DNA from: Fischerella sp. CENA71
GTDB lineage: Bacteria > Cyanobacteriota > Cyanobacteriia > Cyanobacteriales > Nostocaceae
Direction: 5' to 3'
Assembly: GCA_024239075.1 (NCBI GenBank)
Contig: JANBVI010000027.1
Coordinates: 372,001 to 436,000, forward strand
DNA: 64,000 bases
This document shows, one piece after another, positions 29,255 to 58,249 of the stretch. The notes under the pieces were generated by a model. That model was not told where the DNA came from. It was given only the letters and a program-made list of their open reading frames with translations, and ran no database searches. Position 1 is the stretch's first letter, and every line of letters begins with the position of its first letter. The position numbers and the translations under genes were made by a program.

Positions 29255-30457
29255 CTATATTGTTGCTTCTGGCAAAATCAACATTGCATCACCAAACGAA
29301 TAAAAACGATATCGAGATGCTATGGCTTCTTGATAAATATTTAATAATCTTTGCCTACCGATTAAAGCACTTACCAACATCAACAAACTTGAACGTGGTA
29401 AATGAAAGTTAGTAATCATACCTTCCACTACCCGCCATTGATAACCAGGATAGATAAACAAATTAGTCTTTCCACAAAATGCTTGCAGTTCACCTTCAGT
29501 TGCAGCTCCTTCTAAAGCACGAACTACCGTCGTACCCACAGCAATAACACGACCACCAGCAGCTTTAGTAGCACGAATTTGTTCTACAGTATTTTGAGGT
29601 ACTTCTATCCATTCTTCATGCATTGTATGGGTAGTGACGTTTTCCACTTCTACCGGACGAAATGTTCCTACACCTACGTGCAATGTTACAAAAGCTTGAT
29701 TAATATTTTGTTCGCGTAACTTTTGTAATAATTCTGGAGTAAAGTGCAGTCCTGCTGTGGGAGCAGCAACCGCTCCTGGATTTTGAGCATATACTGTTTG
29801 ATACTGTTCGTTTTGAGCTTTGCTTGTTGTGATGTATGGCGGTAGAGGTATTTCACCAAATTCATCCAACAATTGCAGCAAAGAAACTTTTTCTGGCAGT
29901 TCAAATTGTAGCAAACGCCCTCCAGTCGCGGTGTCGCTTGCTAGGACAGTCGCTGTTAGAGAATAAGACAGGGGGATGAGGGGAGATACGGACGCGGAGA
30001 GATTTTCTAATCCTTTTTCCGTGTCTTCTTTCCTATTCTTCGGTGTGAAAACAATTTTTGAGCCGCGCTTAAAACGTTTTCCCGGCTTGACTAAGGCTAA
30101 CCAACAGTTATGCTGTCTTTCTTCTAGCAGTAGTACTTCTACCTGTGCTCCTGTTAATTTTTGACCATATAATCGGGCTGGAAGAACTCGTGTATTATTC
30201 ATCACTAGCAAATCCCCCGGACGTAGGATTTCTGGTAAATCTCGAAAGATGTGGTGTTGAGGTGCAATTTCTTTACCTACATTTTGAGAATTTACAACTA
30301 GGAGTCTAGAACTATCTCTGGGAACTGCTGGGTTTTGAGCAATTAATTCGGTTGGTAATTCATAATCGTACCCAGCTAATGAGAGGTCTAGCTCAGAATT
30401 TTCTGGTGTTTGTTTGGATATTAAATGAGAATTTGTTTTTGCGAGTTGTTCCTGCAT
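29255..30457 (-). CDS. queA: S-adenosylmethionine:tRNA ribosyltransferase-isomerase
   Basis: QueA transfers the ribosyl part of S-adenosylmethionine to 7-aminomethyl-7-deazaguanine in tRNA, making epoxyqueuosine. Family motifs include [25 protein letters not shown], split here by position, then [31 protein letters not shown] and [18 protein letters not shown]. The product is about 400 residues, longer than the usual ~350, partly because about 26 residues (ending ENLSASVSP and PLIPLSYS) come from a repeat inserted between VFTPK and LTATVL. The insertion keeps the frame and lies in a loop. The ATG at 30457 is my choice; one at 30493 would add 12 residues. Confidence 0.94.
29958..30045 (-). repeat. 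In-frame GACGCGG-type repeat inside queA
   Basis: This segment breaks the QueA family pattern. On the coding strand it reads GAAGACACGGAAAAAGG, an AT-rich loop and CTCTCCGCGTC. It encodes a peptide containing NLSAS. It shares core, orientation and frame with the copies in yraN, the acylase gene and cobB. Confidence 0.75.
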
Positions 30458-30699
30458 TGAGATTTTAGACTTTCTTAAACAATTTGGTTGCAAATAATGA
30501 GTTCTTTTAGAACTCTAAAGTATTGCCGACAAAATAGAATCTTCGACTTTAAGATAGATAGCATTCAGTACCACTGAAGCAACTATATGAAAATTGGGTA
30601 AACCTCCCTATCTAAAAACGGGGGCTTTTACCCTAGTAAGTTGTGAGTCGCTCTACCAATAATAGAAATGTAGGATTGGCTTTGATCCCAAGCACCAAG

Positions 30700-31089
30700 A
30701 TGGAATACTTGTATTATCTGGCAAATGCCAGTCTCACTCTGAGGGTTGTTCAATACTTGCACGCTAAACCCCAAATACCTGTTTCCTTCATCACCGTAAT
30801 TCATCAAATTGATGGTTGGGTGGTTAGAGTCAAACTGAGAAAACAGGTATCGCCCCAAGAAGATGGTGACATTCGAGCTTTTTTGAATGAATTAGGAATT
30901 AGCTACGAGCCGCCAATGCGAGTACAAATGGCACTTTGGAGCTTAGAGGCAGGTCAGTGTCCTGTTGATGTTATGCGTCGTTATCAGGTTGCTATTGTCT
31001 CTCATGGTAGCCCAGAAAAAGAGGAAATTGAGGCATTTAGACAACAGTTTGTTAGGGGATTAGGTTATTGTCCAGAAACTTTGGCGTAA
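30700..31089 (+). CDS. Conserved-looking protein of unknown function
   Basis: I do not recognise this gene. The product has about 129 residues from the ATG at 30700 (MEYLYYLANASLTLRVV). An in-frame GTG at 30643 would add 19 residues of low-complexity, less plausible sequence. It is soluble, has alternating strands and helices (VSFITVIHQIDGWVVRVKL, then DIRAFLNELGI) and ends RGLGYCPETLA. No enzyme motif is visible. It starts divergently from queA and stands alone before the convergent yraN. Confidence 0.72.
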   Translation: MEYLYYLANASLTLRVVQYLHAKPQIPVSFITVIHQIDGWVVRVKLRKQVSPQEDGDIRAFLNELGISYEPPMRVQMALWSLEAGQCPVDVMRRYQVAIVSHGSPEKEEIEAFRQQFVRGLGYCPETLA

Positions 31090-31250
31090 CCAAATTCAGT
31101 AAACTGTTATCAATTATCAGTTTGAAAAAGTATTAGGTCAGCCTTGAAATATAATTTAGAGTAAAAATTAAAATTGTAGGGGGGTAATTGGTAATTGATA
31201 ATTATTGATATTTGGTGTTATTAACAGAGAATAACTCGTAATAGCCGCTA

Positions 31251-31802
31251 CTATCTGAAATCATCGGCAACATCAAAAGCCGCAGAAATATATTCTTGTA
31301 ATGTTAATTTATACCCTGCTATATACGAGCTAAATAGGTTTTCTTCTTGAAATTTGTCCTTAATAAATTTTGTTGACATTTGACGATAACTAACAATGGC
31401 AACGTCAAATCGACAAGGGTAATCTGCTTGATCAGGGTGTGCTACTAAAAACATCTGTGCTGTACGCCAAAGCTTGACTTGCTTTGATAAGGCGATCGCA
31501 CTTCTTCCCCCCGCATCCCAATTTCTGGGACTGCGGGTTTTTACTTCGACAAACGCCAGTGTTGGAGACGAGAGTACAGAAGACGCGGAGATATTATTAA
31601 CAATTTCTCCCTTGTCCGCGTGTCCTTCGTGTCCCGATCTCTCTGCATCCTCCACATACTGGGCAACAATATCAATTTCTCCCCAACGACAACGCCAGCG
31701 ACGAGCAAGAATTACCCAACCTTGAGATTGTAAGCAATGTGCTACTAGGTCTTCTCCTGCGTTGCCGATATCGAGATAATGGTAAGGAGAATGGTTCGTC
31801 AT
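31251..31802 (-). CDS. YraN-family (UPF0102) nuclease-fold protein
   Basis: A 183-residue protein of the YraN/UPF0102 family, which has a PD-(D/E)XK nuclease fold resembling Holliday-junction resolvases. The motifs [20 protein letters not shown] and FVEVKTRS give the E...D...ExK catalytic pattern. Family members are usually ~120 residues. Here about 30 residues (from [16 protein letters not shown] to NNISASSVL) are a repeat-derived insertion between the GEIDIV strand and the VEVKTR strand, and the C-terminus is also extended. The frame is intact, so the protein may still fold. Its start codon lies only 15 bp from that of the divergent pentapeptide gene. Confidence 0.88.
31560..31657 (-). repeat. 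In-frame GACGCGG-type repeat inside yraN
   Basis: The coding strand reads CACGCGGACAAGGGAGAAATT, split here as CACGCGGACAAGGG plus GAAATTG, then ATCTCCGCGTC. It encodes a peptide with NNISAS. It interrupts the nuclease core between two beta strands without breaking the frame. Confidence 0.78.
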
Positions 31803-31817
31803 TGGTTAAAAGTTACA

Positions 31818-32327
31818 ATGAGTTCTAAGTTGAGCGATCGCATTAAAATAAGCATACTAAGTGTGTTGTTTTTGGCTGTGATGGCTATCACAGTTGCTCT
31901 AGCTTTCCCCGAAAGTGCTGTAGCAATTAACTATAACAACCGAACCTTAGAAGCGGCTGATTTTTCCAAGCAGGATTTAACAGATTCCAGCTTTGACCAT
32001 GCTAATCTTCGCAATAGCAACTTCAGCAATTCCAATTTACGTGGTGTCAGATTCTTTTCGGCAAATTTAACGTCAGTAGATTTCACCGACTCTGACCTCA
32101 GTTATGCCGATTTAGAATCAGCACGAATGACTAAAGCCAATTTGACGAATGCAGTCCTAGAAGGCGCATTTATAACTGGCACTATGTTTAATGGAGCAAC
32201 AATTGATGGTGCAGATTTTACTGATACTTACATCCGTGAGGACATGCTTAAGAAATTATGTGAAGTAGCTAAAGGCACTAACCCAGTCACAGGGCGGAAT
32301 ACCCGCGATACTTTGGCTTGTCCTTAA
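31818..32327 (+). CDS. Secreted or lumenal pentapeptide-repeat protein
   Basis: A 169-residue protein with a signal peptide (about residues 9-36, [19 protein letters not shown], cleaved after AVA). A pentapeptide-repeat beta-helix follows, with A(D/N)Lxx units such as ANLRN, SNLRG, ANLTS, SDLSY and ANLTN. It ends with a short capped segment containing two cysteines (LCEVAKG and TLACP). This matches the layout of thylakoid-lumen pentapeptide proteins; the function is unknown. I chose the ATG at 31818 over one at 31779 because the upstream codons overlap the divergent yraN gene. Confidence 0.87.
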
Positions 32328-32342
32328 TTGTTACTAACTTTG

Positions 32343-32387
32343 GTGTCTTGGTGTCTTGGTGTTTTAACCACAAAGACACCAAGACAC
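32343..32387. repeat. Inverted repeat of GTGTCTTGG units
   Basis: GTGTCTTGGTGTCTTGG on the left pairs with CCAAGACAC-type units on the right across a short TTAA loop. It lies between convergent genes and may act as a terminator. A second copy of the family is at 48211-48274. Confidence 0.7.
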
Positions 32388-32414
32388 GAAGAGAATTCTT
32401 GTGTGATGGGCGGC

Positions 32415-34931
32415 TTAAGGCATTAACTTTAAACTTTTAGCAGTATTACTTACTATATTTTTTTGTTCCCAAAGCATGGGATGATATTCAAACTTGCGCC
32501 AAGGTTGAATCATATCGTCGTAGTGGCGATGAAAAGCATGACCAGATTGTCCAGTCGTTTGAATGGCGACGGAATTATCCCAATTTGCTAAGTCTACAAT
32601 CATCCGCATTGATGGTAAAGAAACTACAGTGTAGTCCTCAGTTGCATTCCACCCAGTTGCATTGACAATAGAACTACCGCCACTACTCGGAAAGGGACCA
32701 CGGTTAAAAAGTGCTTCAACAGGTGCAATACCCGATTTCCCTAAAGTTTGGTTGCGGAAGGTGACAGTATGAAGATTTCCCCAGCGCCAGCGACTTGCAT
32801 CTTTTCCCAAAGTTTGTTCTAGTTCATCTACTGCTTTGGCAAAAGCTTGTTGAAAAATTTGATCACGATTTTCCACTGGAGAGGTTTTTTGATTATCCCA
32901 CCAATTGTTATTAGGTTGTTTCACCAATTGTCTAATGATTTCAAACCCACGACTGCTACCAGTTGATAAATAAGCTTGGGGTAGTTGATCGCTAAATGTA
33001 TCAGCTAAGAGATGTTTCCAAAATGCTGCAAAAATTGCGCCAGCATTACTGTCTTGATGTTGTTGAAAATCCCAATCTACTAGCAAACGTCGTGCTTTTT
33101 CCAAACGATGATCTGATATGGGAATTTGCAGCAGAATAGGCACTATATTTTCGGCAATTAAATTTTTATTATCTGCCTGCATTTTCTGTACATCAGCAAC
33201 TGTAATACCATTCTTTTTTGCTGCGATCATTTCTACAATTCGCTGGGCGCGAAAACCATAATCCCACTCACTAGAAATCAGATAAGGATAATCTTCACCT
33301 ACAGCTGCGTTATTAGCAGTCACGATATAGCCAGACTCTGGATTAAAGATTGAGGGAAGTTTCTCAAACGGAATATATTCTTGCCATTCAAAGTCATCTG
33401 TCCAACCGAGAACGGGATACCGCCCATCTCCAGTTTTGCGAACAGGGATTTTACCAGGCATTTGGTAGCCAATATTGCCATCAATATCAGCGTAAACAAA
33501 ATTTTGTGCTGGTACATCAAAATCTCGTACGCCTGCGCGGAATTCTTGCCAATTTTGACTAAGATTGATTTTGACGATCGCAGATGCCAAGGTTGAAGGT
33601 TCTAAGGCAGTCCATCGCAATGCTAAAGCATAATTTGCTGGTAAGTTAATCCCTGCTGTTTGACGGAAGTTTTTTAAGGGGGCAAATGTGTCAGAAATAA
33701 TTGGCCCGTGGCGAGTGTAGCGGACTGTTTGTGTAACAGATTTGCTACTAGCAACTTGAATATTTTCTGTGAGGAGTTCCATATCAACCCATTTACCATT
33801 AACTTCATATTGATTCGGATTATTTGGGTTGATTTTCTCAATGAACAAGTCCATCACATCTGCTTCTAAATTAGTCACTCCCCAACTAATACGGTCATTG
33901 TGACCAATAATCACCCCTGCCATACTAGGGAAAGAAAATCCTGTCACATCGTAGGGACATGCAGCAGTTTTTGGTAAGCAATGTAAACCAACTTCATACC
34001 AAATAGATGGCATTTGTACACCCAAGTGAGGATCATTGGCGAGGATGGGTTTACCAGTTGCAGTACGTTTTCCTGAGATTACCCAGTTGTTGGAACCTAT
34101 ACCATCGCCTTTACCGAGGGCGAGGGGAGAAGAAAAGGAGGACGCGGAGAACATCAGACGCGGTGACGCGGAGAATCTATTTACATTACTCTCTGTGTCT
34201 CTGCTTCCTCGTGTCCTCGTGTCTTTATTATTCCCTGCATCACCTACAATAACGGGATGATCGACGGGATAGGGAGGAATGAGTTGATCTACTTGTTGTG
34301 ATGTGAGGGTTTTGAGTAGGACACTGCGTTCAATTTCTGTGTCTAGGTTGTCGCCAAGATCGTAGGACATAACTTTGCCCCACGTGAGTGTATGTAAAAG
34401 TTGCCAAGGTTCGGGTTTATATTTGGGGTTGAGCAGTTTTAGGACAGCGTATTCTAAACTTAAGCTGCTATCTTGGTGATTGCCAAGATAAGTATTAATC
34501 CCAGCAGCATAAGCTTGTAGGATATTTTTGGTTTGTGCATCCATTTGCTGTATTTCTGTTTGGGCAACTCGCGCCCATCCCAAGGTACGCAGGAATTTAT
34601 CAACATTCAGCTGCGACTGACCAAACATTTCGGCTAAACGACCAGAACCTATGTGTCGCCAAAAATCCATTTGCCAGAAACGATCTTGAGCATGAATATA
34701 GCCTTGAGCCATAAATAGATCGTGGGTATTCTGGGCATAAATGTGAGGAATTCCTGATCGATCGCGTCGGACTTCAACCTGTGATTGCAATCCTGGTAAT
34801 CTAATTTCGCCGCTTTCTTGCGGCCAGGAATGGTGAATAGTGTAGGCGATCGCACTACTCATGACCAAAATTACAACTAGAATACTAATGCTAATCAATT
34901 TCAAGATTTTGCTTTTAAATAGCTTCTGCAT
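32415..34931 (-). CDS. Penicillin-acylase-family N-terminal nucleophile hydrolase
   Basis: An 838-residue precursor of the penicillin amidase family, whose members cut amide bonds in acyl-homoserine lactones, beta-lactams or related amides. A signal anchor (ISILVVILVMSSAIAY) starts the protein, so it should be periplasmic. The alpha chain has QGYIHAQDRFWQMDFWR. The beta chain begins at the catalytic serine in GIGSNNWVISGKRT (residue 280), followed by LANDPHL. A repeat-derived insertion (about residues 231-270) lies in the spacer that is normally cut out during maturation. The true substrate cannot be told; a role against quorum signals is only possible. Confidence 0.9.
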   Translation of the reverse strand: MQKLFKSKILKLISISILVVILVMSSAIAYTIHHSWPQESGEIRLPGLQSQVEVRRDRSGIPHIYAQNTHDLFMAQGYIHAQDRFWQMDFWRHIGSGRLAEMFGQSQLNVDKFLRTLGWARVAQTEIQQMDAQTKNILQAYAAGINTYLGNHQDSSLSLEYAVLKLLNPKYKPEPWQLLHTLTWGKVMSYDLGDNLDTEIERSVLLKTLTSQQVDQLIPPYPVDHPVIVGDAGNNKDTRTRGSRDTESNVNRFSASPRLMFSASSFSSPLALGKGDGIGSNNWVISGKRTATGKPILANDPHLGVQMPSIWYEVGLHCLPKTAACPYDVTGFSFPSMAGVIIGHNDRISWGVTNLEADVMDLFIEKINPNNPNQYEVNGKWVDMELLTENIQVASSKSVTQTVRYTRHGPIISDTFAPLKNFRQTAGINLPANYALALRWTALEPSTLASAIVKINLSQNWQEFRAGVRDFDVPAQNFVYADIDGNIGYQMPGKIPVRKTGDGRYPVLGWTDDFEWQEYIPFEKLPSIFNPESGYIVTANNAAVGEDYPYLISSEWDYGFRAQRIVEMIAAKKNGITVADVQKMQADNKNLIAENIVPILLQIPISDHRLEKARRLLVDWDFQQHQDSNAGAIFAAFWKHLLADTFSDQLPQAYLSTGSSRGFEIIRQLVKQPNNNWWDNQKTSPVENRDQIFQQAFAKAVDELEQTLGKDASRWRWGNLHTVTFRNQTLGKSGIAPVEALFNRGPFPSSGGSSIVNATGWNATEDYTVVSLPSMRMIVDLANWDNSVAIQTTGQSGHAFHRHYDDMIQPWRKFEYHPMLWEQKNIVSNTAKSLKLMP
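34122..34241 (-). repeat. In-frame GACGCGG-type repeat inside the acylase gene
   Basis: The longest of the four in-gene copies. The coding strand has GACACGAGGACACGAGG, an AT-rich loop and then two TCTCCGCGTC units. It encodes NRFSASPRL and then MFSASS. It ends about 10 codons before the nucleophile serine. Confidence 0.8.
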
Positions 34932-35526
34932 AGTTGATTTCGCAGATGATAAATTTTCAGATTGTTAACATTGTCTGTATTTTCGGTAACTTTGATATAT
35001 GTATATTTGCAGTTTTTCTCAAATATCTTTCTCTAGTATGGTTAAGCTTGGTTACTAAACTTGTAGATTGAATAAAGAAAAAATTAAAAAATAAAATTTT
35101 AAATATTATTAAGCAATTGTACTCATTGTTGTGTTTGTAATGAGGACTAAAGTCCTCACTACAAACTTAAAATAATATGCCAATTGCATAATTCTTGACT
35201 ATTTTGAGCTTTAATTATCCATCAAAGGAATCCAGATAGGATTTTCCCTTTACCTTTTACCTCTCTACCTTAAGAGGTATATGCTCACTGAATTGTTGCA
35301 AATTATTTAGTTAGCAATTTCCAGGTAAAGTTTATTTTCAAACGATGCAAGAAGAATGAAAGTACTGTTAGTCTGTTTATGTAAGAAAAGACTAGTTTGA
35401 CGTTTATTAGAGGTAGATTTTGTTCTTAACAAGTTTTAACAATTGCTGTAGTTAATTAACTGAAAAGATATTGATGAATTATTAAGATTAACTAAAAAAA
35501 TTATATTTATTGTTTTTCTAATTACT
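34932..35526. other. Intergenic region, about 600 bp, AT-rich
   Basis: No gene seen. It contains a palindrome GAGGACTAAAGTCCTC at about 35142-35157 followed by ACTACAAAC, a sequence related to one near 29156. The rest is AT-rich, including the likely promoter of the next small gene. Confidence 0.6.
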
Positions 35527-36006: not shown

Positions 36007-38181
36007 CTAACGTAGAGGTTTTGGCAGAATTAATTGTATTGGTTTTGATGTTTGAATTGGTTCTACACCAGGTTTTGGCTGAGTTACTACGTGCGGTTTA
36101 GTAAAAATTACATTTGGTTTGATCACTGACAACTGACTTTGGGCTTTATCTCGTGCTTGGATAGCTTGCTGATAATCTGGTTTAATTTTTATCGCTTGAT
36201 TGTAAGAAGCGATCGCTTCTTGATAACGTTGTAAATTGAACAAAGCATTTCCTCTAGAAAACCAAGTTTCGTAGTGTTGTGGGTTGTAACGAGCGGCGCG
36301 ATCATATGAGGCGATCGCTTCTTCATATTTCTGTAAAAGATATAGCGAATTACCCCGGTTATACCAAAGTTGATCATCGTTTCGTTTTAATTTTGCTGCT
36401 TGTTCGTAAGCTGCTACAGCTTCGTTATATTTTTGCATTTGATGGAGCGACCAACCCTTGTTATACCATGCTTGGAAATTATTAGGGTTTAATTCAATAA
36501 ATCTATTAAATGATTCAACTGCTTCTGGATAGCGCTGTAAATTCATCAGAATATTACCTCTTGCTAACCACGCTTGGTAATAATTTGGATTAGTTTGCAC
36601 GGCTTGATCATAGGCTGTCAATGCATCTTGATCACGTTGCATATTCACAAGAGAATTGCCGCGATTAAACCAAGCTTCTGCATAACTTGGTTTGATTTCA
36701 AGAGTTTTATCGTATGCTTTGATTGCCTCTTCGTAGCGTTTTAAATTTTGTAGCGTTTGGGCTTTATTATACCAAGCTTCATAATCATCTTTTTGCAAAT
36801 TAATTGCTTGTTCGTAAGCCGATATTGCTTGATCATACCGCTTTAAACTGCTTAAAGCTTCTCCTTTTGCATTCCAAACTAGGGGAGAGTTATTTTCTAG
36901 TTGTAAGGCTTTATCAAAAGAAGCGATCGCTTCTTGATACCGTCGTAAATCTTTTAATACAAAACCTCTACCTATCCAAGCTTCTAAATAATCCGGCTCA
37001 ATTTGAATTGCTTTGTCATAAGCTGTGAGGGCTGCTTTGTATTCTTTTAATTTACTCAGTGTACTAGCTTGTCCATTCCAAGCTTCAGCATATTCTGGTC
37101 GAATTTTTACTGCTTTTTCATATACTGACAAAGCATCTTGATAACGTTGTAATTCATAAAGTGTATTAGCTTTTTTATATAATTCTGTGGCGTTTACAGA
37201 ATTAATACTATTAATAGTATATATAGCTCCTACAGTTCCCAATCCTAAAATTATCATCCCAGCTAAGATTTTTTTGATAATCTTTCTTTGGGGTTTATTA
37301 TTTGTAATTGATGGTTGATTGTGAACAGGAACATTTAATGCTACTGTTTGCCAGTTGGGATGATGCAAATCTTTTAAAGCTTGTAAAGCTAAAGTTGCTG
37401 ATGAGTAACGTTGACGAAAATCATAACGCACCATTTTATCTAAAAACTGAGCAAATTCCTGACTGACTTCAGTATGATTTTGCCAAATAATTTCATTAGT
37501 TTCTGCGTCTTTTTCAAGTTCTTCAGGAGATAAACCAGTTAGTGCTTGAATCCCAAGAATACCAACAGCATATATATCGCTACTATATTTTGGGCTACCT
37601 TGGGCTTGTTCCCCAGGAAGATAACCAGGAGTACCAATCGCGACGGTAAATGTTGTTTTGTTACTAGGATTAATCACTTGAGTCGTAATTTGTTTGACGG
37701 CTCCAAAATCAATTAAAAATAACTTGCCATCTGGTTCTCTTCTTAGTAAATTATGGGGGTTGATGTCACGATGGATAACTTTCTGTTGATGGACAAAATC
37801 TAAAATTTGTAAAATTTCTTGCAAGAGAGAAATAACTTGAGATTGACTGAGGGGCTTTCCTGGTATGATTTCTTGGCTCAGATCATGGCCTTCAATAAAT
37901 TCTTGTACCAGATAAAATTCTTCGTTTTCTTCAAAGTATGCCAAAAGTTGAGGTATCTGATTGTGTGTACCTAATTTATGTAAAACTTGGGCTTCTGTAT
38001 CAAACAGACGTCTAGCAGTTTGCAGACTTTTTGGATCTGTGACTTGGGGTTTAAGTTTCTTGACAACACATTTAGGATTGCCAGGTAATTGAGTATCATA
38101 AGCGACGAAAGTTTCACCGAATCCTCCTCCTCCCAAATGACTGATAATTTGGTATCTTCCAACAAGTATATTTCCCAGCAT
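36007..38181 (-). CDS. Serine/threonine protein kinase with TPR repeats
   Basis: A Hanks-type kinase joined to TPR repeats. The kinase domain (about 8-275) has the glycine loop LGGGGFGET, lysine 41 in CVVKKLK, catalytic D139 in HRDINPHN, and D158 in DFGAVKQ. A single membrane helix (ILAGMIILGLGTVGAIYT) near 305-325 is followed by about ten TPR units (each ~34 residues, such as AWYNKGWSLHQMQKYNEAVAAY). The TPR part is therefore predicted to be periplasmic and the kinase cytoplasmic. Catalytic-loop residue 141 is N where K is usual. I chose the ATG at 38181; one at 38229 would add 16 residues. Confidence 0.92.
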   Translation of the reverse strand: MLGNILVGRYQIISHLGGGGFGETFVAYDTQLPGNPKCVVKKLKPQVTDPKSLQTARRLFDTEAQVLHKLGTHNQIPQLLAYFEENEEFYLVQEFIEGHDLSQEIIPGKPLSQSQVISLLQEILQILDFVHQQKVIHRDINPHNLLRREPDGKLFLIDFGAVKQITTQVINPSNKTTFTVAIGTPGYLPGEQAQGSPKYSSDIYAVGILGIQALTGLSPEELEKDAETNEIIWQNHTEVSQEFAQFLDKMVRYDFRQRYSSATLALQALKDLHHPNWQTVALNVPVHNQPSITNNKPQRKIIKKILAGMIILGLGTVGAIYTINSINSVNATELYKKANTLYELQRYQDALSVYEKAVKIRPEYAEAWNGQASTLSKLKEYKAALTAYDKAIQIEPDYLEAWIGRGFVLKDLRRYQEAIASFDKALQLENNSPLVWNAKGEALSSLKRYDQAISAYEQAINLQKDDYEAWYNKAQTLQNLKRYEEAIKAYDKTLEIKPSYAEAWFNRGNSLVNMQRDQDALTAYDQAVQTNPNYYQAWLARGNILMNLQRYPEAVESFNRFIELNPNNFQAWYNKGWSLHQMQKYNEAVAAYEQAAKLKRNDDQLWYNRGNSLYLLQKYEEAIASYDRAARYNPQHYETWFSRGNALFNLQRYQEAIASYNQAIKIKPDYQQAIQARDKAQSQLSVIKPNVIFTKPHVVTQPKPGVEPIQTSKPIQLILPKPLR

Positions 38182-38281
38182 TTGGTTTACCCAGTAGAAT
38201 ACGCTACGACCTGATTTTGATCTTGCCACAGTTTTTTGACTGTGGTTAGTAGTTAGTGGATGATGGCTAATAATAATTACT

Positions 38282-38313
38282 CATTACCCATTACCAATTA
38301 CCCATTACCCATT
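38282..38313 (+). repeat. Tandem CATTACC heptamers upstream of the rhomboid gene
   Basis: Four to five CATTACC/AATTACC units in tandem end 8 bp before the ATG of the rhomboid-like gene. The 5' untranslated region is thus largely STRR sequence. Confidence 0.78.
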
Positions 38314-38320
38314 ATTTTCA

Positions 38321-39031
38321 ATGATTCCTATTAGCGATAACCTTTTCATTAGTTCGCGTCAAAAACCGATAATGATTTATTGGTTAATTGGTATGAATAT
38401 TGCTTTATTTTTATGGGAATTTAAGCTAGAAATCAGTGGACAGTTAGGTTTTTTTGTGAATAATTGGGGTTTAATTCCAGCCCAAATGCATGGCGCGATC
38501 GCTAATTTATTTACTGGTAATTCTGCTGCTGGAATATTTGTGTTGTCGCGTTCTGCTTCTTTGTTAACTGCAATGTTTCTTCACGGTAGTTTTAGCCAAA
38601 TTTTGGGTAATTTACTATTTTTATGGGTTTTTGGCAGAAATTTAGAAAATATTCTTGGACATGGAAGATTTTTGGTATTTTATCTGATGTGTGGCGTTCT
38701 GACAGGAATAATCCAAATTCTTGCTAATCCCAATTTGACCGTACCATTGATAGGTGCAAATGGTGCGATCGCATCTGTTTTGGGAGCATATATCTTCAAG
38801 TTTCCGAAAGTTAAAATTGATACTGTTATGCCTCTTTTAGTTATCTTTATACCTATGCAAATTCCAGCAATTTTCTATACAATTTGGTGGTTTGTTCAAC
38901 AATTATTTTATGGGATTGGTAGTTTAAATATTCCTGGTGGTGTCAACCCGCTGAATAGTATTAATTATTGGGCGCAGATTGCAGGGTTTATTATCGGTGT
39001 AACTACCATGAAAAGATTACAACTAAAATGA
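38321..39031 (+). CDS. Rhomboid-fold membrane protein lacking the catalytic dyad
   Basis: A 236-residue protein with about six membrane helices and clear rhomboid motifs: FLHGSFSQILGNLLFLWVFG in the loop/helix 2 region, and the helix 4 and helix 6 regions. The catalytic serine motif GxSG reads GANG (N147), and the catalytic histidine in helix 6 is glutamine (WAQIAGF, Q219). Both members of the dyad are therefore replaced and the protein should have no protease activity, like the iRhom and Derlin pseudoproteases. The frame is intact, so it is probably a functional non-enzymatic protein. It is divergent from the kinase gene. Confidence 0.88.
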   Translation: MIPISDNLFISSRQKPIMIYWLIGMNIALFLWEFKLEISGQLGFFVNNWGLIPAQMHGAIANLFTGNSAAGIFVLSRSASLLTAMFLHGSFSQILGNLLFLWVFGRNLENILGHGRFLVFYLMCGVLTGIIQILANPNLTVPLIGANGAIASVLGAYIFKFPKVKIDTVMPLLVIFIPMQIPAIFYTIWWFVQQLFYGIGSLNIPGGVNPLNSINYWAQIAGFIIGVTTMKRLQLK

Positions 39032-39069
39032 GTATGCATAGACAGCTACCAACCACCAACCATCAATAA

Positions 39070-40707
39070 CTAAAATTTTAAATCATCCAAAGATTCTTCG
39101 ATTTCTAAATCTAAAATTATTTCTTGAACTTTTTTATATTTTGCGAGATTACCTTCTTTATAATATATATCTTTAGCTTTCTGAAAATCTGCGATCGCTT
39201 CTTGTTTATCTCCTAAATCATAACGAGCATTGCCGCGATTATAATAGGCATCGGCATCATTGATATTTATTTTAATCGTTTCTGTATAGTCTGCGATCGC
39301 TCCTTCATAATCTTGGACATCATAACGAGCATTACCACGATTATAATAAGCATCGGCATCATGACCATTAATTTTAATTGCTTGAGTATAATCTGTGATT
39401 GCTCCTTCATAGTCTCCCAATTCTAGGCGAAAGTTACCACGCTTTTTATAAGCAAGAAAATCATCAGCATCAAGCTCACTTTCTTGGACAAAGTCTTCAA
39501 TTTGTTCTTGATAATCGCCAATTTTGATATTTTTAAAATTTATTTTACCTTCTGGCTGTGGATATAACTTGACTAATTGAGTATAATCTTCGATAGCTCC
39601 TTGTTTATCGCCTAAAAAATAACGCACATCAGCACGATTTTTGTATGCGATCGCATCATTAGGATTAATTCTAATTGCCTGAGTATAATCGGCAATTGCT
39701 CCTTCATAATCTCCTAGCTGATAACGTGCTAAACCACTTTTATTATAAGCTTTAATGTATTTCGGATTAATTCTAATTGCCTGGGCATAATCAGCAATTG
39801 CTCCTTCATAATCTCCTACTTGATAACGTGCTAAACCAAGCTTATAGTATGTATCGGCATCATGAGAACATAATTGCAATGCTTCATTATAATTGATAAT
39901 GGCAGCATGAAATTGTCCTTTTCCACTGCATTCATCGCCGAGTTTTATGTAAATTAGATTTAACTCTTCACTTTGAGTATTTATATTTTTAACTGAATCT
40001 AAATGCAGTTTTGTGAATGAAGTGTATGGTTGTTGATAGATTAATTCTGATTTAATATTTTGTTTGTTATTTGTAAATATTTTTTCATTTAGCTGATGAT
40101 TTTTCACATCTTGTAATTGTTCTAAATAACCACGTAAACCACCACCATAAAGTAATTGCTGTATCCCGAAGGAAATTCTGCCAGTTTTCAGCTTAATCAT
40201 TTGAGTTGGCAGAAAACCAGCAAGGAAGAGATGATACTCTGATTGTGCTTCATTGACTTGCTCTTGAATTAAAATGCAAACAACAACTGCATTTTTCTCA
40301 ACTTCTTCGGCACTGATTGACCATCTGACTTTATCAATGTTACCGTAACGAGATTTTACCTCAATCCCAATAGATGGATTAGCTGTCATCGTGAAATCTG
40401 TTTTACCATCTCCGCCAATTCTTTTTTCGTAATCTACTTCTGTTATTAAATCAGCTAGGCGTTCTTTGACAACTTCCTCTCCTAACTTTCCTTTGAGGTA
40501 GCTGATAAAAACATCACGCACTGGTGAAACACGTTTATATTTTTCTGCCATTAGCCAGCAAAAATCTCTAAGGTTTTTTAACCTTTCTCCAGAGATTATT
40601 GTTGTTTCACTATATTGACCCTCTATTTGACAATGCAGCAGACAACCAGATGTTAACCTTTTGATGAAGTCTGATTGAAGCGATCGCAGTACCGTTATCC
40701 AATCCAT
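39070..40707 (-). CDS. PD-(D/E)XK-like domain fused to TPR repeats
   Basis: A 545-residue protein. The N-terminal ~190 residues look like a PD-(D/E)XK nuclease-type fold: GEEVVKERLADLI, then D104 in KTDFTM, then E116 and K118 in GIEVKSR. The C-terminal ~300 residues contain at least seven TPR units (for instance YYNRGNARYDVQDYEGAIADY). I do not know a named family for this fusion, and nuclease activity is only inferred from the motif. It has no signal peptide. It could be a nucleic-acid binding or degrading protein guided by TPR contacts. It is convergent with the rhomboid gene. Confidence 0.78.
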   Translation of the reverse strand: MDWITVLRSLQSDFIKRLTSGCLLHCQIEGQYSETTIISGERLKNLRDFCWLMAEKYKRVSPVRDVFISYLKGKLGEEVVKERLADLITEVDYEKRIGGDGKTDFTMTANPSIGIEVKSRYGNIDKVRWSISAEEVEKNAVVVCILIQEQVNEAQSEYHLFLAGFLPTQMIKLKTGRISFGIQQLLYGGGLRGYLEQLQDVKNHQLNEKIFTNNKQNIKSELIYQQPYTSFTKLHLDSVKNINTQSEELNLIYIKLGDECSGKGQFHAAIINYNEALQLCSHDADTYYKLGLARYQVGDYEGAIADYAQAIRINPKYIKAYNKSGLARYQLGDYEGAIADYTQAIRINPNDAIAYKNRADVRYFLGDKQGAIEDYTQLVKLYPQPEGKINFKNIKIGDYQEQIEDFVQESELDADDFLAYKKRGNFRLELGDYEGAITDYTQAIKINGHDADAYYNRGNARYDVQDYEGAIADYTETIKININDADAYYNRGNARYDLGDKQEAIADFQKAKDIYYKEGNLAKYKKVQEIILDLEIEESLDDLKF

Positions 40708-44780: not shown

Positions 44781-44809
44781 AAAAACCGCCACTAGTAAAG
44801 TAGGGCGGT
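44781..44809 (-). terminator. Rho-independent terminator after the DUF362 gene
   Basis: On the minus strand a stem with ACCGCC arms (44785-44790 with its complement at 44804-44809) is followed by six T. It lies about 80 bp after the DUF362 stop codon. Confidence 0.72.
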
Positions 44810-44889
44810 CTGGTTAAGCAATCGGAGGGTATTTTTAGCTTACTCTGGCGGTTTTGAAATTGCTGTAGCAGAATTTGCACTTGTTGTAG

Positions 44890-51590: not shown

Positions 51591-51602
51591 AAAAGTACCA
51601 CA

Positions 51603-51690
51603 CCTTGATTTCGTGGGTCATTAGCAAAAGCGACTTTCCTCTACACTCACTTCCGGGGTGTAAAGGAAAGTCGCCTTGTCGTAATCAAGG
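51603..51690 (+). terminator. Large nested hairpin after the sugar transferase gene
   Basis: GCGACTTTCC (51630-51639) pairs with 51665-51674. Inside, TACAC pairs with GTGTA. Outside, CCTTGATT (51603-51610) pairs with AATCAAGG (51683-51690). The nested structure starts 13 bp after the stop codon and may be a terminator or processing site; no long U-tract follows. Confidence 0.62.
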
Positions 51691-52048: not shown

Positions 52049-53128
52049 ATGACGCAACAAAAGCGAGCGTTGATCACTGGTATTACCGGTCAAGATGGTT
52101 CCTACTTAAGTGAATTTTTACTTGAACAAGGTTACGAGGTTCATGGGATTATTCGTCGGACTTCCACCTTTAACACAGACCGCATCGACCATATTTACGA
52201 AGACCCTCACAAAGAAGGAGTGCGGCTGTTTCTTCACTATGGGGATCTGACAGATGGTACTACACTGCGCCGCATCCTAGAAGAAGTCCAACCTACAGAG
52301 ATATATAATTTGGGCGCTCAATCCCATGTAAGGGTCAGCTTTGATGCACCAGAATACACAGTTGATGCAGTGGGAATGGGAACACTGCGTCTGTTGGAAG
52401 CAATTCGCGACTATCAACACCGTACAGGTATTCAGGTGCGTTTCTACCAAGCTGGCTCTTCAGAAATGTTTGGTTTGGTACAAGAAGTACCTCAAAAGGA
52501 AACTACGCCTTTTTATCCCCGCAGCCCCTACGCCTGTGCTAAGGTTTACGCCCACTGGCAAACTGTAAACTATCGGGAATCTTACGGTTTGTTTGCGTGT
52601 AATGGGATACTGTTTAATCACGAATCACCGAGACGGGGTGAAACTTTTGTCACACGTAAAATAACAATGGCTGTAGCTCGCATTTTTGCTGGTAGACAGA
52701 AAAAACTATATATGGGTAATCTGGATGCCAAGCGGGATTGGGGTTATGCCAAAGATTACGTCAAAGCAATGTGGATGATGTTGCAGCAAGACGAACCTGA
52801 CGACTATGTAATTGCCACTGGTGAAACCCACACAGTACAAGAGTTTCTGGAAATGGCGTTTGGTTATGTAAATCTCAATTGGCAAGATTATGTGGAATTT
52901 GACCCACGCTATCTCCGTCCAGCAGAAGTAGACTTGTTGATTGGTGATCCCACAAAAGCCCAGCAAAAATTGGGCTGGAAGCCTTCTGTAACATTTGAGG
53001 AACTAGTTTCCTTAATGGTGGAAGCAGACTTACAAGCTTTAGGTTTGACTTCTCCCAATGGAAAATTAACAAACGCAATTATGGATAATGCTATGATTCG
53101 GCAGGAAGTAGGGGTGCTGCATCTGTGA
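52049..53128 (+). CDS. gmd: GDP-mannose 4,6-dehydratase
   Basis: Gmd converts GDP-mannose to GDP-4-keto-6-deoxymannose, the first step to GDP-fucose. The 359-residue extended SDR has the NAD(P) motif [14 protein letters not shown] at the N-terminus. The GDP-mannose site includes [20 protein letters not shown] and the active-site tyrosine/lysine in [27 protein letters not shown] and [10 protein letters not shown] are diagnostic for Gmd. I chose the ATG at 52049; an in-frame TTG at 52043 would add two residues. fcl follows after 22 bp, so both are one operon. Confidence 0.96.
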
Positions 53129-53141
53129 ACAAGATCCATGA

Positions 53142-54095
<954 letters not shown>

Positions 54096-54247
54096 AAAGT
54101 AAGTAAGTCGCTGTAAAAATTCAATATTTGTAGTAAGCGCTGAAGCAATTACTACAAAATAGTTTACTTTTTTTACATAGTTCGGTTTATTCACGCCGAC
54201 TAATTTAAGGTGGGCGATTTGCCCTATGTAACCAGTAGTTACACTTT

Positions 54248-54274
54248 GACCAAAACTTCTTTGAAGTTTTGGTC
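54248..54274 (+). terminator. Hairpin terminator of the gmd-fcl operon
   Basis: GACCAAAACTTC (54248-54259) pairs perfectly with 54263-54274 around a TTT loop. Only a short T-rich stretch follows (ATTCT). It lies about 150 bp after the fcl stop codon. Confidence 0.75.
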
Positions 54275-54524
54275 ATTCTAGTAAATTATTAAAAAAATCT
54301 CCGCGTCACCGTGTCTCAATATCTCCGCATCGTTTTGCTCGTCAATATGCAACCCGACATGATATAAATTAAAAAATTTAAAAAATTTGAGTATTAACCA
54401 AAATTGAAGCCAAAGAAGATTTTCAGGGATTAAAACTGAATTTTTGCATTGGCGATCGCAATCCAAAGTAGTGTCAAAATTAAAATTTATTAACACTATT
54501 CTCAATGATTTTAGCTTAACAAAT
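54275..54524. other. Spacer upstream of the cNMP-binding gene with CTCCGCGTC repeats
   Basis: Two CTCCGC units (ATCTCCGCGTCACCGTGTC near 54297 and ATCTCCGCATCG near 54321) belong to the same family as the in-gene repeats. The remainder is AT-rich and should include the promoter of the next gene. Confidence 0.6.
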
Positions 54525-54953
54525 ATGCTATCTACCGTTGAACGTTTATTATTTGTTCGCAGAGTACCTATTTTTAAAGAACTACGCGATGATTTTATCG
54601 TTCGCTTGGCTTCTGTCATGGATGAATTATCTTTTCCAGGGAATTACACTATTTTTAATGAGGGAGACGAAGGGCGATCGCTTTATATTGTCGTTTCCGG
54701 TAAAGTCAAAGTTCATATTGGTAAACAACAACTTGCTATTTTTCCCAAAGGCGAATCCTTTGGTGAAATGGCTGTATTTGATGCTCAACCACGTTCCGCT
54801 TCCGCCACAACTTTAGAAGCTTGTGAATGCTTGGAATTGACACAAGGACAACTTTATGAAGCAATTGATGAAATTCCTGAAATAGCCGTAAATATCATTG
54901 GTATTCTCTCTCGGCGAATTCGAGAACTGAACGATAAAATAAATGCGACATAA
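54525..54953 (+). CDS. Cyclic-nucleotide-binding domain protein (no DNA-binding domain)
   Basis: A 142-residue protein made of one Crp-type cyclic-nucleotide-binding beta-roll. The phosphate-binding cassette is GESFGEMAVFDAQPRSASA, in which the RSA arginine and FGE glutamate are kept, so cAMP or cGMP binding is plausible. No helix-turn-helix follows, so it probably works by protein contact. The ATG at 54525 (MLSTVERLLFVRR) fits the family start better than one at 54444. It stands alone beside the IS605-type element. Confidence 0.84.
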   Translation: MLSTVERLLFVRRVPIFKELRDDFIVRLASVMDELSFPGNYTIFNEGDEGRSLYIVVSGKVKVHIGKQQLAIFPKGESFGEMAVFDAQPRSASATTLEACECLELTQGQLYEAIDEIPEIAVNIIGILSRRIRELNDKINAT

Positions 54954-54973
54954 ATGCTTTTTTTAATTGACAC

Positions 54974-55110
54974 TCCCACGGCTAAAAGCGCGTGGGATTC
55001 TTGCTTCATCCAGCCAACTTGTCTAGAGGAGTTTCCCCACCTAGATAGAGGTCGTTCTGTCCACAAGCTTTAGATTCCGTATGCCCTACGGTACTTTTTA
55101 GTCCTTTCGC
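54974..55110 (-). ncRNA. Predicted omega/reRNA guide of TnpB (inferred)
   Basis: Guide RNAs of TnpB are made from the 3' end of tnpB and the element's right end. The hairpin at 54974-54997, downstream of tnpB on its strand, is where such an RNA would end before its guide. I infer only position; the borders are not visible from sequence. Confidence 0.4.
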
Positions 55111-56184
55111 CAATATTTGTCTAGCTGCATTATGGTCACGGTGCATGACTGTTCCGCACTCATGGCATTTATGGGTACGAGTAGACAACGATTTTTTGAC
55201 TCGTGTCCCACAAACTGAACAATCTTGCGATGTGTAGTGTGGTGCAACAGCTATTGCCCAAATATCAAAAACTTTGGCGTAGTAGTCCACCCAATCAGTG
55301 AACAGTGACCATGATGCATCGGTGATAGATTTAGCTAAATGATGGTTCTTGACCATATTTTTTACCTGCAAGTCCTCATAGACTACCAAGTCGTTAGACT
55401 GGACAAGCGCTCTTGCAGTCTTAAGTGCAAAATCTTTACGCTGTCTACTTACCTTGAGGTGTTTTTTAGCTAATTTATTAACAGCTTTACGGCGATTAGA
55501 TGAACATTTTTTACTTTTTGAAACTTTGCGTTGTTTGCGTTTTAAAGATTTCTCACTCTTTAGCAATAGTCTAGGATTCTCGACTGTTTTACCTTCAGAA
55601 TCAGTGTAGAAAAACTCTAAACCTACATCAATTCCAACTTGATTACCGCTATGTTGATGCTGTTCTTTACGCTCAACGTCAACACAGAACTGACAATAAT
55701 AACCATCAGCACGTTTAACTATTCTGACACGCTTAATCTGCTTGATAGAGTAGAAACTTAAGTCACGAGTACCAATTAACTTAAGCTTGCCGATATTAAA
55801 ACCATCACTAAATATGATGTACTTTTTATCAGCAGAGAGCTTGTACCCTGTCGTTTTATATTCTACAGAATGACCCTGTTTTTTGAATCGCGGGAATCCC
55901 TTCTTGCCCGGTTTCTTAGCTTTGCAATTATCGTAGAAACGTTTAATTGCTAACCAAGCTCTATCAGCAGAAGCTTGACGTGCCATAGAGTTAAGTTTGT
56001 CCGCAAACTCAAATTTTTTGGCTAAAACCGCACAAAGTTTTTGAAGGTCATTCTTGCCAACATTTTTATTATCAATCCAGTGTCTTAGAGCTTTGTTGCG
56101 GATAAACAAAGCTGTTCTAATAGCTTCATCTATTGAATTGTACTGACTTTGTTTACCTTTTAACTTAGCTTCTAAAACTAACAT
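55006..56184 (-). CDS. tnpB: RNA-guided endonuclease TnpB (IS605 OrfB)
   Basis: A 392-residue TnpB. The RuvC catalytic residues are all kept: D186 in GIDVGL, E270 in VVYEDLQVKNM and D350 in MHRDHNAARQI. The four-cysteine zinc finger is complete (C322, C325, C340, C343; CSVCG and CHECG). TnpB proteins are ancestors of Cas12 and use an RNA guide to cut DNA at the donor site, which favours retention of the element. The gene is divergent from tnpA. Nothing is truncated. Confidence 0.95.
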   Translation of the reverse strand: MLVLEAKLKGKQSQYNSIDEAIRTALFIRNKALRHWIDNKNVGKNDLQKLCAVLAKKFEFADKLNSMARQASADRAWLAIKRFYDNCKAKKPGKKGFPRFKKQGHSVEYKTTGYKLSADKKYIIFSDGFNIGKLKLIGTRDLSFYSIKQIKRVRIVKRADGYYCQFCVDVERKEQHQHSGNQVGIDVGLEFFYTDSEGKTVENPRLLLKSEKSLKRKQRKVSKSKKCSSNRRKAVNKLAKKHLKVSRQRKDFALKTARALVQSNDLVVYEDLQVKNMVKNHHLAKSITDASWSLFTDWVDYYAKVFDIWAIAVAPHYTSQDCSVCGTRVKKSLSTRTHKCHECGTVMHRDHNAARQILAKGLKSTVGHTESKACGQNDLYLGGETPLDKLAG

Positions 56185-56273
56185 CGCTTCGACCTGTTGA
56201 CGATAAATCTAATATAGTACAACATGGTTGATATGTACAAGCTATTGACCACGGTTTTATTAGAACTTTAAAA

Positions 56274-56669
56274 ATGACAGGCAAATATAGACACAAAACA
56301 ACTTCCGTCACTTTAATTAATTATCATTTTGTTTGGATTCCTAAAAGACGCAAAAAAGTGCTTGTTGGAAATGTTGCTAAACGACTTGAAGAATTGCTGT
56401 ATGAAAAAACAAAAGAGCTAGATTGCGAAATCATAGCTCTTGAAATCATGGAAGACCATGTACACTTATTTCTTTGTTGTCCACCAACTTTAGCGCCCGA
56501 CCAAATAATGTTTAGACTGAAAGGGTTTACATCCAGAGTACTTAGACAAGAATTTCCGCATTTATTAAAGCTTCCATCAATGTGGACTAGAAGCTATTTT
56601 TGTAGCACTGCTGGAGATCCTTCTAGTGAAACAATTAAGAGATATATTGCTAACCAAAAGACAAGATAG
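56274..56669 (+). CDS. tnpA: IS605-family Y1 transposase TnpA
   Basis: A 131-residue HUH single-strand transposase. The metal-binding pair is H62 and H64 in DHVHLFL, and the nucleophile is Y124 in IKRYIANQ. The start MTGKYRHKTTSVTLINYHFVW, shortened here to the first residues MTGKYRHK, is normal. It excises and inserts the element as single-stranded DNA by recognising end hairpins. It is complete and paired with tnpB. Confidence 0.94.
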   Translation: MTGKYRHKTTSVTLINYHFVWIPKRRKKVLVGNVAKRLEELLYEKTKELDCEIIALEIMEDHVHLFLCCPPTLAPDQIMFRLKGFTSRVLRQEFPHLLKLPSMWTRSYFCSTAGDPSSETIKRYIANQKTR

Positions 56670-56782
56670 ACTGCACCTAAAGGTGCAACGCATTCATCCC
56701 ATGTCTAAAGGACGGGATTCGTCGCTGTGCGACTATCCCTCATGGGCTTTCTGCTTTAATCACTGTAACTTCTACAACAAGT

Positions 56783-58249
56783 CTACTCACCCAAACAACA
56801 TCTTAAAAATCTTTGGGCAATTTCTGGGGAAGCACCCCAATGCATATGAATATAAGAGGCGTGAAGATTGAGATGTGGTAAATTAGACCCCCATCCTTCA
56901 CACCCTGTAAATTCTTCATTATCAAAGCGATAAGTTTGAAATAGTGGCTGTTCAAAATTGGACATTAAATAGGAACGATGAAACTCATGTCCATAAACTG
57001 TTGTTCCTGCATTTGCTAACAAACTATCTTGCAGAACAACAGCGCGGCGATATCCTAAAGTTAAACGTCCACTCATAACTGCGGTTGTAGGTAACACTCC
57101 CACCATCGACCAAGATTTACCTGCAAAATCGATAACTTGCTCACACAAATACATCAACCCACCACACTCAGCAATTGTTGGCATTCCCGCCAAAATAGCT
57201 GTTTGAATTGCTGCTTTGACAACAGTATTTTCCGCAAGTGCCTGGGCAAATACCTCTGGAAACCCACCCCCAAAATACATACCTTGGACTCCTTCTGGTA
57301 GCCCAGAATCTTCTAAGGGACTCCAGAAAACCAACTCTGCACCCAGTTTTTGTAACAAGTCGAGATTGTCTTGGTAGTAAAAATTAAAAGCGCGATCGCG
57401 TGCCACAGCAATCTTGATAGAAGAAGACGCGCAGAGGTTGGGACGCGGCGACGCGGAGAAATTGTTAGTAACATCCCCGCGTCCCTGTGTCACCGTGTCC
57501 CCGTGTTCTTCTATTCTCAGCAACGGTAACAACCTCTCCCAATCAAAGCAAGTGTCACCCAAATCAGCAAATCGCTCAATCAAAGCATTGAGTTCGGGAA
57601 GTTCAACTGTGGGTACTAAACCGAGGTGGCGATCAGGAATGGTAATATTATCTTGGCGACGCAGTACACCAAGAATTGGTAATTGTAGGCGTGTAAGAGA
57701 ATTTTCGAGCAATTGTAAGTGGCGATCGCTACCCACACGATTTAAGATTAATCCGGCTATTTTAATTCTGGGATCAAAAGAACTATAACCGTGAGCGATC
57801 GCAGCAACAGAACCAGACAAGCGACTGCAATCAATCACTAATATTACAGGTAAATCTAACAGTCTTGCTATATGAGCAGTACTGGCATAATCAGTCATTT
57901 GCCCCATGTCATTGGTTATTTGTTCTTGCTGTTTTGTCAATGACAAATGACTAGTGACTAATGACGAAACTCCATCAAACAACCCCATCACGCCTTCGAT
58001 AAGAGCATAATCCATACCTTGGCTGTGACAAGTAAAACACTGCTGTACGTACGTTTCTGAAGTTAAAATCGGGTCTAAATTTCGACAAGCACGTCCAGTC
58101 ACATGCTGATGAAACATCGGATCTATATAATCCGGCCCGACTTTGAAAGATTGTACTTGGTGCGATCGCCGACACAAAGACGCTAGCAGGGTGAGTGTGA
58201 TTGTTGTCTTACCCACCCCGCTACGTTCTCCTGCAATAACTAAAGCCAT
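56783..58249 (-). CDS. cobB: Cobyrinic acid a,c-diamide synthase
   Basis: An amidotransferase that converts cobyrinate to its a,c-diamide in cobalamin synthesis, using ATP and glutamine. The N-terminal P-loop is GERSGVGKTT, followed by KVGPDYIDPMFH. The glutamine amidotransferase half has YFGGGFPEVFA, the nucleophile cysteine in AECGGLMYL, and the final histidine in SYIHMHW. It has 488 residues, longer than usual because of two repeat-derived insertions, one in the P-loop domain (about 93-120) and one in the linker (about 245-277). The stop codon is about 35 bp from the IS605-type element. Some close relatives are called CbiA. Confidence 0.93.
   Translation of the reverse strand: MALVIAGERSGVGKTTITLTLLASLCRRSHQVQSFKVGPDYIDPMFHQHVTGRACRNLDPILTSETYVQQCFTCHSQGMDYALIEGVMGLFDGVSSLVTSHLSLTKQQEQITNDMGQMTDYASTAHIARLLDLPVILVIDCSRLSGSVAAIAHGYSSFDPRIKIAGLILNRVGSDRHLQLLENSLTRLQLPILGVLRRQDNITIPDRHLGLVPTVELPELNALIERFADLGDTCFDWERLLPLLRIEEHGDTVTQGRGDVTNNFSASPRPNLCASSSIKIAVARDRAFNFYYQDNLDLLQKLGAELVFWSPLEDSGLPEGVQGMYFGGGFPEVFAQALAENTVVKAAIQTAILAGMPTIAECGGLMYLCEQVIDFAGKSWSMVGVLPTTAVMSGRLTLGYRRAVVLQDSLLANAGTTVYGHEFHRSYLMSNFEQPLFQTYRFDNEEFTGCEGWGSNLPHLNLHASYIHMHWGASPEIAQRFLRCCLGE
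57418..57520 (-). repeat. In-frame GACGCGG-type repeat in the cobB linker
   Basis: The coding strand reads GGGGACACGGTGACACAGGG, then GACGCGGGGATG, an AT-rich loop and TTCTCCGCGTCGCC. It encodes NNFSASPRPN and CASSS. It lies between the P-loop domain and the amidotransferase domain. Confidence 0.8.
57888..57970 (-). repeat. In-frame TGACAAA-type STRR insertion in the cobB P-loop domain
   Basis: Units of CATTGAC, TTGTCAT and TTAGTCACT are read as SLVTSHLSLTKQQEQ and ITNDMGQMTDY. Relatives have a short GxxxTA loop here before STAHIARLLDLPV. The frame is preserved. Confidence 0.75.

Follow-up and report, generated by a model that had tools for sequence, protein, structure and literature searches.

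Four unrelated protein-coding genes within a 64,000-nucleotide stretch of the cyanobacterium Fischerella sp. CENA71 (contig JANBVI010000027.1, positions 372,001 to 436,000; the whole stretch is called the window here) carry in-frame inserts of a hairpin-like repeat, and such inserts have been found at dozens of sites across the 7.47-Mb genome, nearly all of them read in one frame. The four cases had been described in a first-pass annotation made from the letters of the window alone, and the observation is genuine and of greater extent than first described. We consider it fairly probable (about 0.63) that repeat-born hairpins are tolerated in permissive loops of proteins, where reading frame and probably charge act as filters and the repeats turn over. 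In the following, G000 denotes the genome under study, other G-numbers the genomes compared with it, and L-numbers single loci.

Hairpin inserts in the window and across the genome

The inserts in queA, yraN, a penicillin acylase family gene and a cobB/cbiA-type gene have been confirmed at the places first proposed, in open frames that continue without a stop, and the genes have been identified by Pfam (Table 1). The motif TCTCCGCGTC stands on the coding strand of all four, twice in the acylase. A core GACACGG, thought to be shared by the whole group, is exact in queA and cobB, whereas GACACGA or GACACGC takes its place in yraN and the acylase, and the proposed peptide N-[FIL]-S-A-S does not extend to the acylase, which reads N-R-F-S-A-S. 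In the purine arm of the YraN insert an additional GACAAGGGA unit resembles the unit of its relatives, and the acylase insert is located shortly upstream of a G-S-N-N-W motif. The borders of the QueA insert have been drawn from an alignment with 20 relatives, among which Nostoc spongiaeforme has the shortest loop. The inserts sit at places at which length varies between relatives, in keeping with the loops and domain borders first proposed.

The element itself is a quasi-palindrome, in which an AT-rich loop, estimated by eye at some 12-18 bases, connects a leading purine-rich arm of tandem 8-base units (e.g., GACACGGG) to a complementary pyrimidine-rich arm (units such as TCTCCGCG). The number of units per arm is variable, and repeat families D3 and D5 as well as the unit spacing give 8 bp for the main unit. 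The common orientation of the four inserts had been taken as evidence for selection; since the reverse complement of a purine-loop-pyrimidine palindrome is again purine-first, it carries little weight and is not independent, and the orientations of the loop within genes (A-type 5 forward and 0 reverse, D-type 4 and 2) do not suffice for a judgement.

Across the genome, TCTCCGCGTC has been matched 230 times, compared with 12 matches of a reversed-pattern control, and its frequency is not due to chance. Inspection of the sequence surrounding 98 of the first 100 listed places (L001-L070 together with the window) has yielded 73 clusters, and a cluster has been counted as genic when it lay 60 codons or more within an open frame at least 170 codons long. 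Genic positions were assigned to 37 of these 73 clusters, including L045, a WD40 protein that proved to be a chance match and has been dropped from the final counts, and to 30 of the 48 clusters of a second set taken from other contigs (L410-L444). Without L045, the two sets amount to 120 clusters, of which 66 are genic and fall into 59 proteins, so that the genome-wide search proposed in the first-pass annotation has returned dozens of genic cases instead of four.

Pfam families have been assigned to 54 of the 59 host proteins, and L051, L417, L429, L431 and L436 gave none at the thresholds used. By their domains, the hosts include phosphoenolpyruvate carboxylase (PEPC), PurL, RsmB, RecG, RecJ, RecO, MutS2 (with two inserts), PriA, a CobN/Mg-chelatase subunit, PutA, acetyl-CoA synthetase, pyruvate:ferredoxin oxidoreductase and several histidine kinases. 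Four inserts out of 67 (L045 included) are located no further than 40 residues N-terminal to a histidine kinase's D-x-G-x-G box, hence paralogues use a similar place. Among the 11 pairs of same-strand open reading frames (ORFs) that flank non-genic copies, five have been tested and no split gene was recognised in these, as the two sides belong to different families in four pairs and one side is without a family in the fifth. As a separate observation, several hosts are proteins of DNA replication and repair (RecG, RecJ, RecO, MutS2, PriA and an SNF2 helicase), and many intragenic repetitive extragenic palindromes (REPs) likewise reside in replication and repair genes, according to the available text of PMC3733652.

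Reading frame and charge of the inserts

With one motif counted per site, 49 of 51 genic sites place the first sense motif in phase 1 (xTC TCC GCG TCx), i.e., 27/28 in the first and 22/23 in the second set. Binomial tests of this bias give a probability of 2e-21 for an expected share of one third and of 1e-7 for a share of 0.65, the latter chosen to allow approximately for stop codons in the alternative frames on the basis of frame openness in the first set, and codon usage in coding sequence predicts phase shares of 0.305/0.153/0.542. When all sense occurrences are considered, 65 of 70 are in phase 1. A genome-wide constraint on the reading frame of the inserts is thereby supported. The earlier suggestion of selection for a readable frame is correct as far as the constraint is concerned; readability alone is insufficient, because 19 of 37 first-set sites have a second sense frame open as well (+1 at 18 sites, +2 at 2), which is nevertheless hardly used. 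Among 13 views of non-genic two-arm copies, the frame of the used type is open in 10 and the others in 6 and 5, and the preference may accordingly be built in part into the element.

The used frame differs from its open alternatives in charge, with the alternatives being basic and the used frame near-neutral. The mean net charge amounts to -1.10 in the used frame versus +6.20 in the other open frames of the first set (lower at 20/20 sites), and to -0.65 versus +5.04 in the second (lower at 20/23), which gives a lower charge of the used frame at 40 of 43 sites. In a separate comparison of purine-to-pyrimidine inserts, the used frame was lowest in 13 of 14 cases in G000 and in 11 of 12 in G294.

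The same loops in related genomes

The genome is Fischerella-like, its best named queA matches coming from Fischerella and allied genera. The proposal that relatives lack the extra segments applies only to some distant species, whereas close species fill the same loops, sometimes with another repeat family. The suggested alignments with homologues (QueA with its 20 relatives, yraN and the acylase) have revealed loops of variable length that are mostly not empty in close relatives, in which unit types have been assigned by eye. Long inserts are present in yraN of all six close relatives (L071-L076), and the queA loop exceeds that of Nostoc spongiaeforme in all six, in L073 and L074 by a few residues only. 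The octamer type of repeat also occurs in the queA and acylase loops of Fischerella PCC 9431, and in other close relatives the queA, yraN and acylase loops are occupied by different repeats; the F. thermalis acylase is not comparable at this loop.

Different repeats at one position are seen in MutS2. Its site 1 holds an 8-, 7- or 9-base unit type among genomes of the same genus, namely the octamer in G000 and G292, a GGGGATC-type heptamer in G294 and a GGGGACAAG-type repeat in G293, while G291 has a mixture plus a further element and the anchor was not located in G299. Site 2 carries the octamer insert in G000 and G294 and an ordinary Pro/Ala-rich linker in G291, G292, G293 and G299; at this single site part of the linker has been replaced, with no target-site duplication evident by eye. 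Of the 73 first-set clusters, 14 could be aligned with two blocks of G294. All ten genic sites among these contain an insert in G294 too, with another unit type in three (yraN, L034 and MutS2 site 1), and the acylase insert is shorter there by exactly 24 nt; the unit has changed in two of the four non-genic sites. At one of these two, the intergenic L032, a similar loop is flanked by two changed arms in G000 and G294, and mixed units within one arm are seen in yraN and in the intergenic L053 (all by eye). The PEPC insert is nearly absent in G293.

A wider survey of 81 loci located the loop in frame in 53 cases for queA, with lengths from 6 to 65 residues, and in 71 cases for yraN, with lengths from 7 to 68 residues. 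In loops of at least 24 nt a run from purines to pyrimidines occurs in 40 of 52 queA and 54 of 70 yraN loops, and the opposite run in 0 and 0. A strict scan for such runs (0.83) missed most octamer inserts and has been relaxed to 0.78 and 0.75, at which purine-first and pyrimidine-first segments in L077-L150 number 25 versus 3 and 45 versus 17; many of these segments are queA or yraN orthologues and therefore not independent. Arm pairing has been compared with 200 arm shuffles in 36 orthologous inserts, of which five were dropped since the anchor could not be located, and 19 of the remaining 31 pair better than shuffled arms (no more than 10 of the 200 shuffles pairing equally well).

Further repeats have been noticed inside these inserts. 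One that reads TPGATTGGTPATHWL or similar (DNA ACGCCAGGTGCTACAAC...) is nested in frame within hairpin inserts of different genes (Table 1), a SHCVARVSRVVARGV element is nested in frame inside a purine repeat in cobB of G292 (L209), and a EETLRVDAQAASHRV element in the same manner in mutS2 of G291 (L184). In G299 the same CobB linker contains a pyrimidine-first repeat of opposite layout, read PPLVPPLTKGRGWG (L212).

Weighing the explanations

According to the preferred reading, quasi-palindromic copies of tandem short units would arise and presumably spread through the genome. Copies within genes would persist, probably as neutral additions, only in permissive loops or linkers and without frameshift or stop, mostly in the frame that gives a near-neutral peptide with a Gly/Asp/Glu/Arg arm followed by Ser/Ala/Pro. 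The insert would then be translated as a flexible loop, and the occupied loop would keep changing by gain or loss of units and by replacement with another repeat family. A bolder proposal, which we regard as possible but doubtful, treats the loops as repeat slots, in which inserts are rewritten in place rather than inserted afresh, with both arms swapping the repeat family, giving core enzymes a repeat dialect of the lineage. Such rewriting would proceed via hairpin-triggered breakage and repair from other copies, and it would fit the changed arms of L032 and the mixed arms of yraN and L053.

A number of observations weigh against tolerance filtered by frame and charge. Exceptions to the phase concern 5 of 70 sense occurrences, only 7 of 10 motifs in G294 are in phase 1 (all three exceptions belong to one protein), and the antisense motif GACGCGGAGA is less fixed, with phase 0 in 13/18 cases of the first and 5/15 of the second set, where six of the other cases lie within one array. 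Regarding charge, random coding segments taken from other Nostocales, 772 in number, likewise have the lowest value in the used frame in 563 cases, albeit with a smaller gap (-0.3 versus about +2.4), and purine-to-pyrimidine inserts of other Nostocales reach 17 of 25, no better than this background. The charge filter is therefore supported for G000 and G294 only; it is the likely frame filter in this lineage, neither proved nor general, and our confidence in the preferred reading has been lowered slightly for this reason. Hydropathy has been rejected as a reason for the frame, as it does not clearly separate the frames. A repeat-like peptide at MutS2 site 2 also in G298 and G008 makes the age of that insert less clear than the comparison within the genus suggests. 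Only one of the four window inserts pairs better than its arm shuffles, and in only 17 of 30 cases do an insert's own arms pair better than the mean across species; with cross-species pairing not clearly weaker, covariation of the arms is not established. As to generality, the TCTCCGCGTC-type octamer is matched in 248 of 291 genomes of the order, with few genomes holding many copies; within the genus the counts are 230, 152, 69, 29 and 20. In the octamer-rich G229 and G118, the latter with 932 motif copies in mostly one-arm, non-genic arrays as far as sampled, genic clusters account for only 2/56 and 3/32 of those sampled; the PEPC of G229 nevertheless holds an insert of the octamer hairpin type.

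It is unlikely, in our view, that no insertion has occurred and that ordinary hypervariable loops have grown by replication slippage of their low-complexity content. In each of the six genes compared, relatives do have variable loops at corresponding positions, a single arm can contain mixed units (intergenic L053), and the loop lengths of queA and yraN span the wide ranges given above. Against this, the octamer unit with its recurring loop turns up in a single genome both within numerous unrelated genes and in the stretches between genes, the octamer insert of MutS2 site 2 is present in two of six closely related genomes, and slippage alone would not be expected to yield two complementary arms.

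A selected function of the messenger RNA hairpin or of the peptide loop, for instance in translation pausing or expression tuning, appears improbable as well. Both arms are indeed present more often in genic than in non-genic clusters of G000 (31/36 versus 18/36, Fisher P 0.002), arm pairing exceeds that of shuffles in the 19 orthologous inserts, and the purine-first polarity of the queA and yraN loops is kept across many Nostocales. The host proteins are, however, unrelated, three of the four window inserts are not clearly better paired than shuffles, and the inserts vary between close species up to near absence, as for PEPC in G293. The polarity across related species may stem from common descent, and it is also displayed by loops without evident repeats.

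Splicing of the hairpin or its bypass by ribosomes, which would keep it out of the protein, is very improbable: its shape and its location in housekeeping enzymes would suit removal, but removal would leave frame and length free, whereas 49 of 51 sites share one phase and the unit change in the acylase measures exactly 24 nt, and no Rfam RNA family has been detected at the four inserts at gathering thresholds (window 29000-58500).

Comparison with known repeat systems

The inserts seem to work like Rickettsia palindromic elements and intragenic REPs, an analogy rather than a claim of membership in either family; the likeness to the former had been pointed out initially and is a good one. One reading frame across host genes is the defining trait of the Rickettsia palindromic elements, and a single frame across hosts is shared by the inserts described here. 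The available text of PMC10969869 describes the former as palindromic repeats that have entered unrelated genes in frame, encode a conserved peptide and occupy sites predicted to be protein-compatible, and in-frame insertion in unrelated genes is common to both. They are, by that text, one element of about 150 bp, whereas tandem 8-base units of variable number are found here, and the cyanobacterial host and the several repeat families in the same loops are further differences.

Intragenic REPs of the GTAG and CGTC families are, according to PMC3733652, palindromes in coding regions that have been suggested to form flexible linkers or loops; more than half occur as dimers or groups and encode 20-30 residues. 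They have one stem of 5-13 bp and a terminal tag, the GTAG ones being tied to genes of REP-associated tyrosine transposases (RAYTs), and the same source lists CGTC repeats in five phyla without cyanobacteria in its results, while its abstract names cyanobacteria for both superfamilies. By this description, the single short stem with a GTAG/CGTC tag differs from the present arms of tandem octamers in variable number. Also different is the RAYT flanked by its repeat that characterises REPs and their hairpin-forming doublets (REPINs). Genome-wide, two Y1_Tnp genes (PF01797) have been found, IS200/605-like by size and by eye, and the octamer motif is absent from a 1.1-kb stretch around each, so that a RAYT-like partner of the octamer is not evident among these two.

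The first-pass annotation knew of no named cyanobacterial equivalent; related cyanobacterial repeats are in print. The available text of PMC2670836 describes the short tandemly repeated repetitive sequences (STRRs) of cyanobacteria, usually of 7 bp, hairpin-forming and located between genes, and that of PMC4692102 the G-rich heptamers of Nostoc PCC 7120, 68% of which are intergenic with a notable share intragenic. Short tandem G-rich units, some capable of hairpins, are common to these and the present repeat, whose main unit has 8 instead of the usual 7 bases; the portions of both accounts seen here contain neither a codon-phase or charge analysis nor a swapping of repeat types at one site. 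Enterobacterial RU elements are, in the available part of PMC2759123, small repeats with open frames that have contributed peptide to annotated genes, being fixed units of 103, 127 and 168 bp that resemble miniature inverted-repeat transposable elements, unlike the short tandem units here. No frame-constrained, repeat-swapping set in cyanobacterial proteins was found in the literature as far as it was accessible, which excludes the main paper on cyanobacterial repeats, Elhai 2008. That work on small dispersed repeats reportedly deals with very small mobile repeats of Nostoc.

Other features of the window

Table 1. Host genes, inserts and further repeat copies (window positions unless a locus is named).
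Feature	Position	Strand	Basis and remarks
queA (S-adenosylmethionine:tRNA ribosyltransferase-isomerase)	29255..30493	-	ORF; PF02547, 460 bits
QueA in-frame hairpin insert, 26 residues	29960..30037	-	core TCTCCGCGTC at 29991-30000; borders by eye
yraN (UPF0102)	31251..31802	-	ORF; PF02021
YraN in-frame hairpin insert	31560..31657	-	core TCTCCGCGTC at 31582-31591; borders from first-pass annotation
penicillin acylase family protein	32415..34931	-	ORF; PF01804, 849 bits
acylase in-frame hairpin insert	34122..34241	-	cores TCTCCGCGTC at 34141-34150 and 34165-34174; borders from first-pass annotation
cobB/cbiA-type gene (CbiA domain + GATase_3)	56783..58249	-	ORF; PF01656 + PF07685
CobB in-frame hairpin insert, linker between two domains	57418..57520	-	core TCTCCGCGTC at 57450-57459; borders from first-pass annotation
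pyrimidine-units-only copy	54298..54330		non-genic by the criterion used; overlaps 3' end of 113-aa ORF (54278-54619, -)
one-arm octamer array	21417..21489		between ORFs 20560-21396 and 21520-24789; repeat family D3
one-arm octamer array	16654..16716		between ORFs 15607-16626 and 16752-17807; repeat family D5
nested TPGATTGGTPATHWL-type repeat	L061 about 4000-4060; L432 about 2900-3040; G294 counterpart of L034 insert		

The array at 21417..21489 is also covered by a 161-aa ORF of the opposite strand (21354-21839), which overlaps the larger ORF. A Y1 (IS200/IS605-like) transposase gene at 56274-56669 (+), with its PF01797 match at 56307-56657, adjoins the 3' end of cobB. Elsewhere in the window, Rfam has matched NsiR4, nitrogen stress-induced RNA 4, at 44783-44846 (-), and direct repeats with 102-base spacing, presumably tetratricopeptide repeats, lie in two ORFs at 36187-39852.

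Implications

In a single bacterium, dozens of housekeeping proteins appear to hold tens of residues derived from a repeat. This amounts to a natural, replicated experiment on the peptide tolerance of folded proteins, with many hosts, one element and comparable frames, to which species of the same genus add different peptides in one loop. It makes testable both charge as a route of selection on new protein segments and the conversion of repeats into protein, and it advises caution, as such loops of cyanobacterial proteins can reflect the repeats of the genome rather than the function of the protein.

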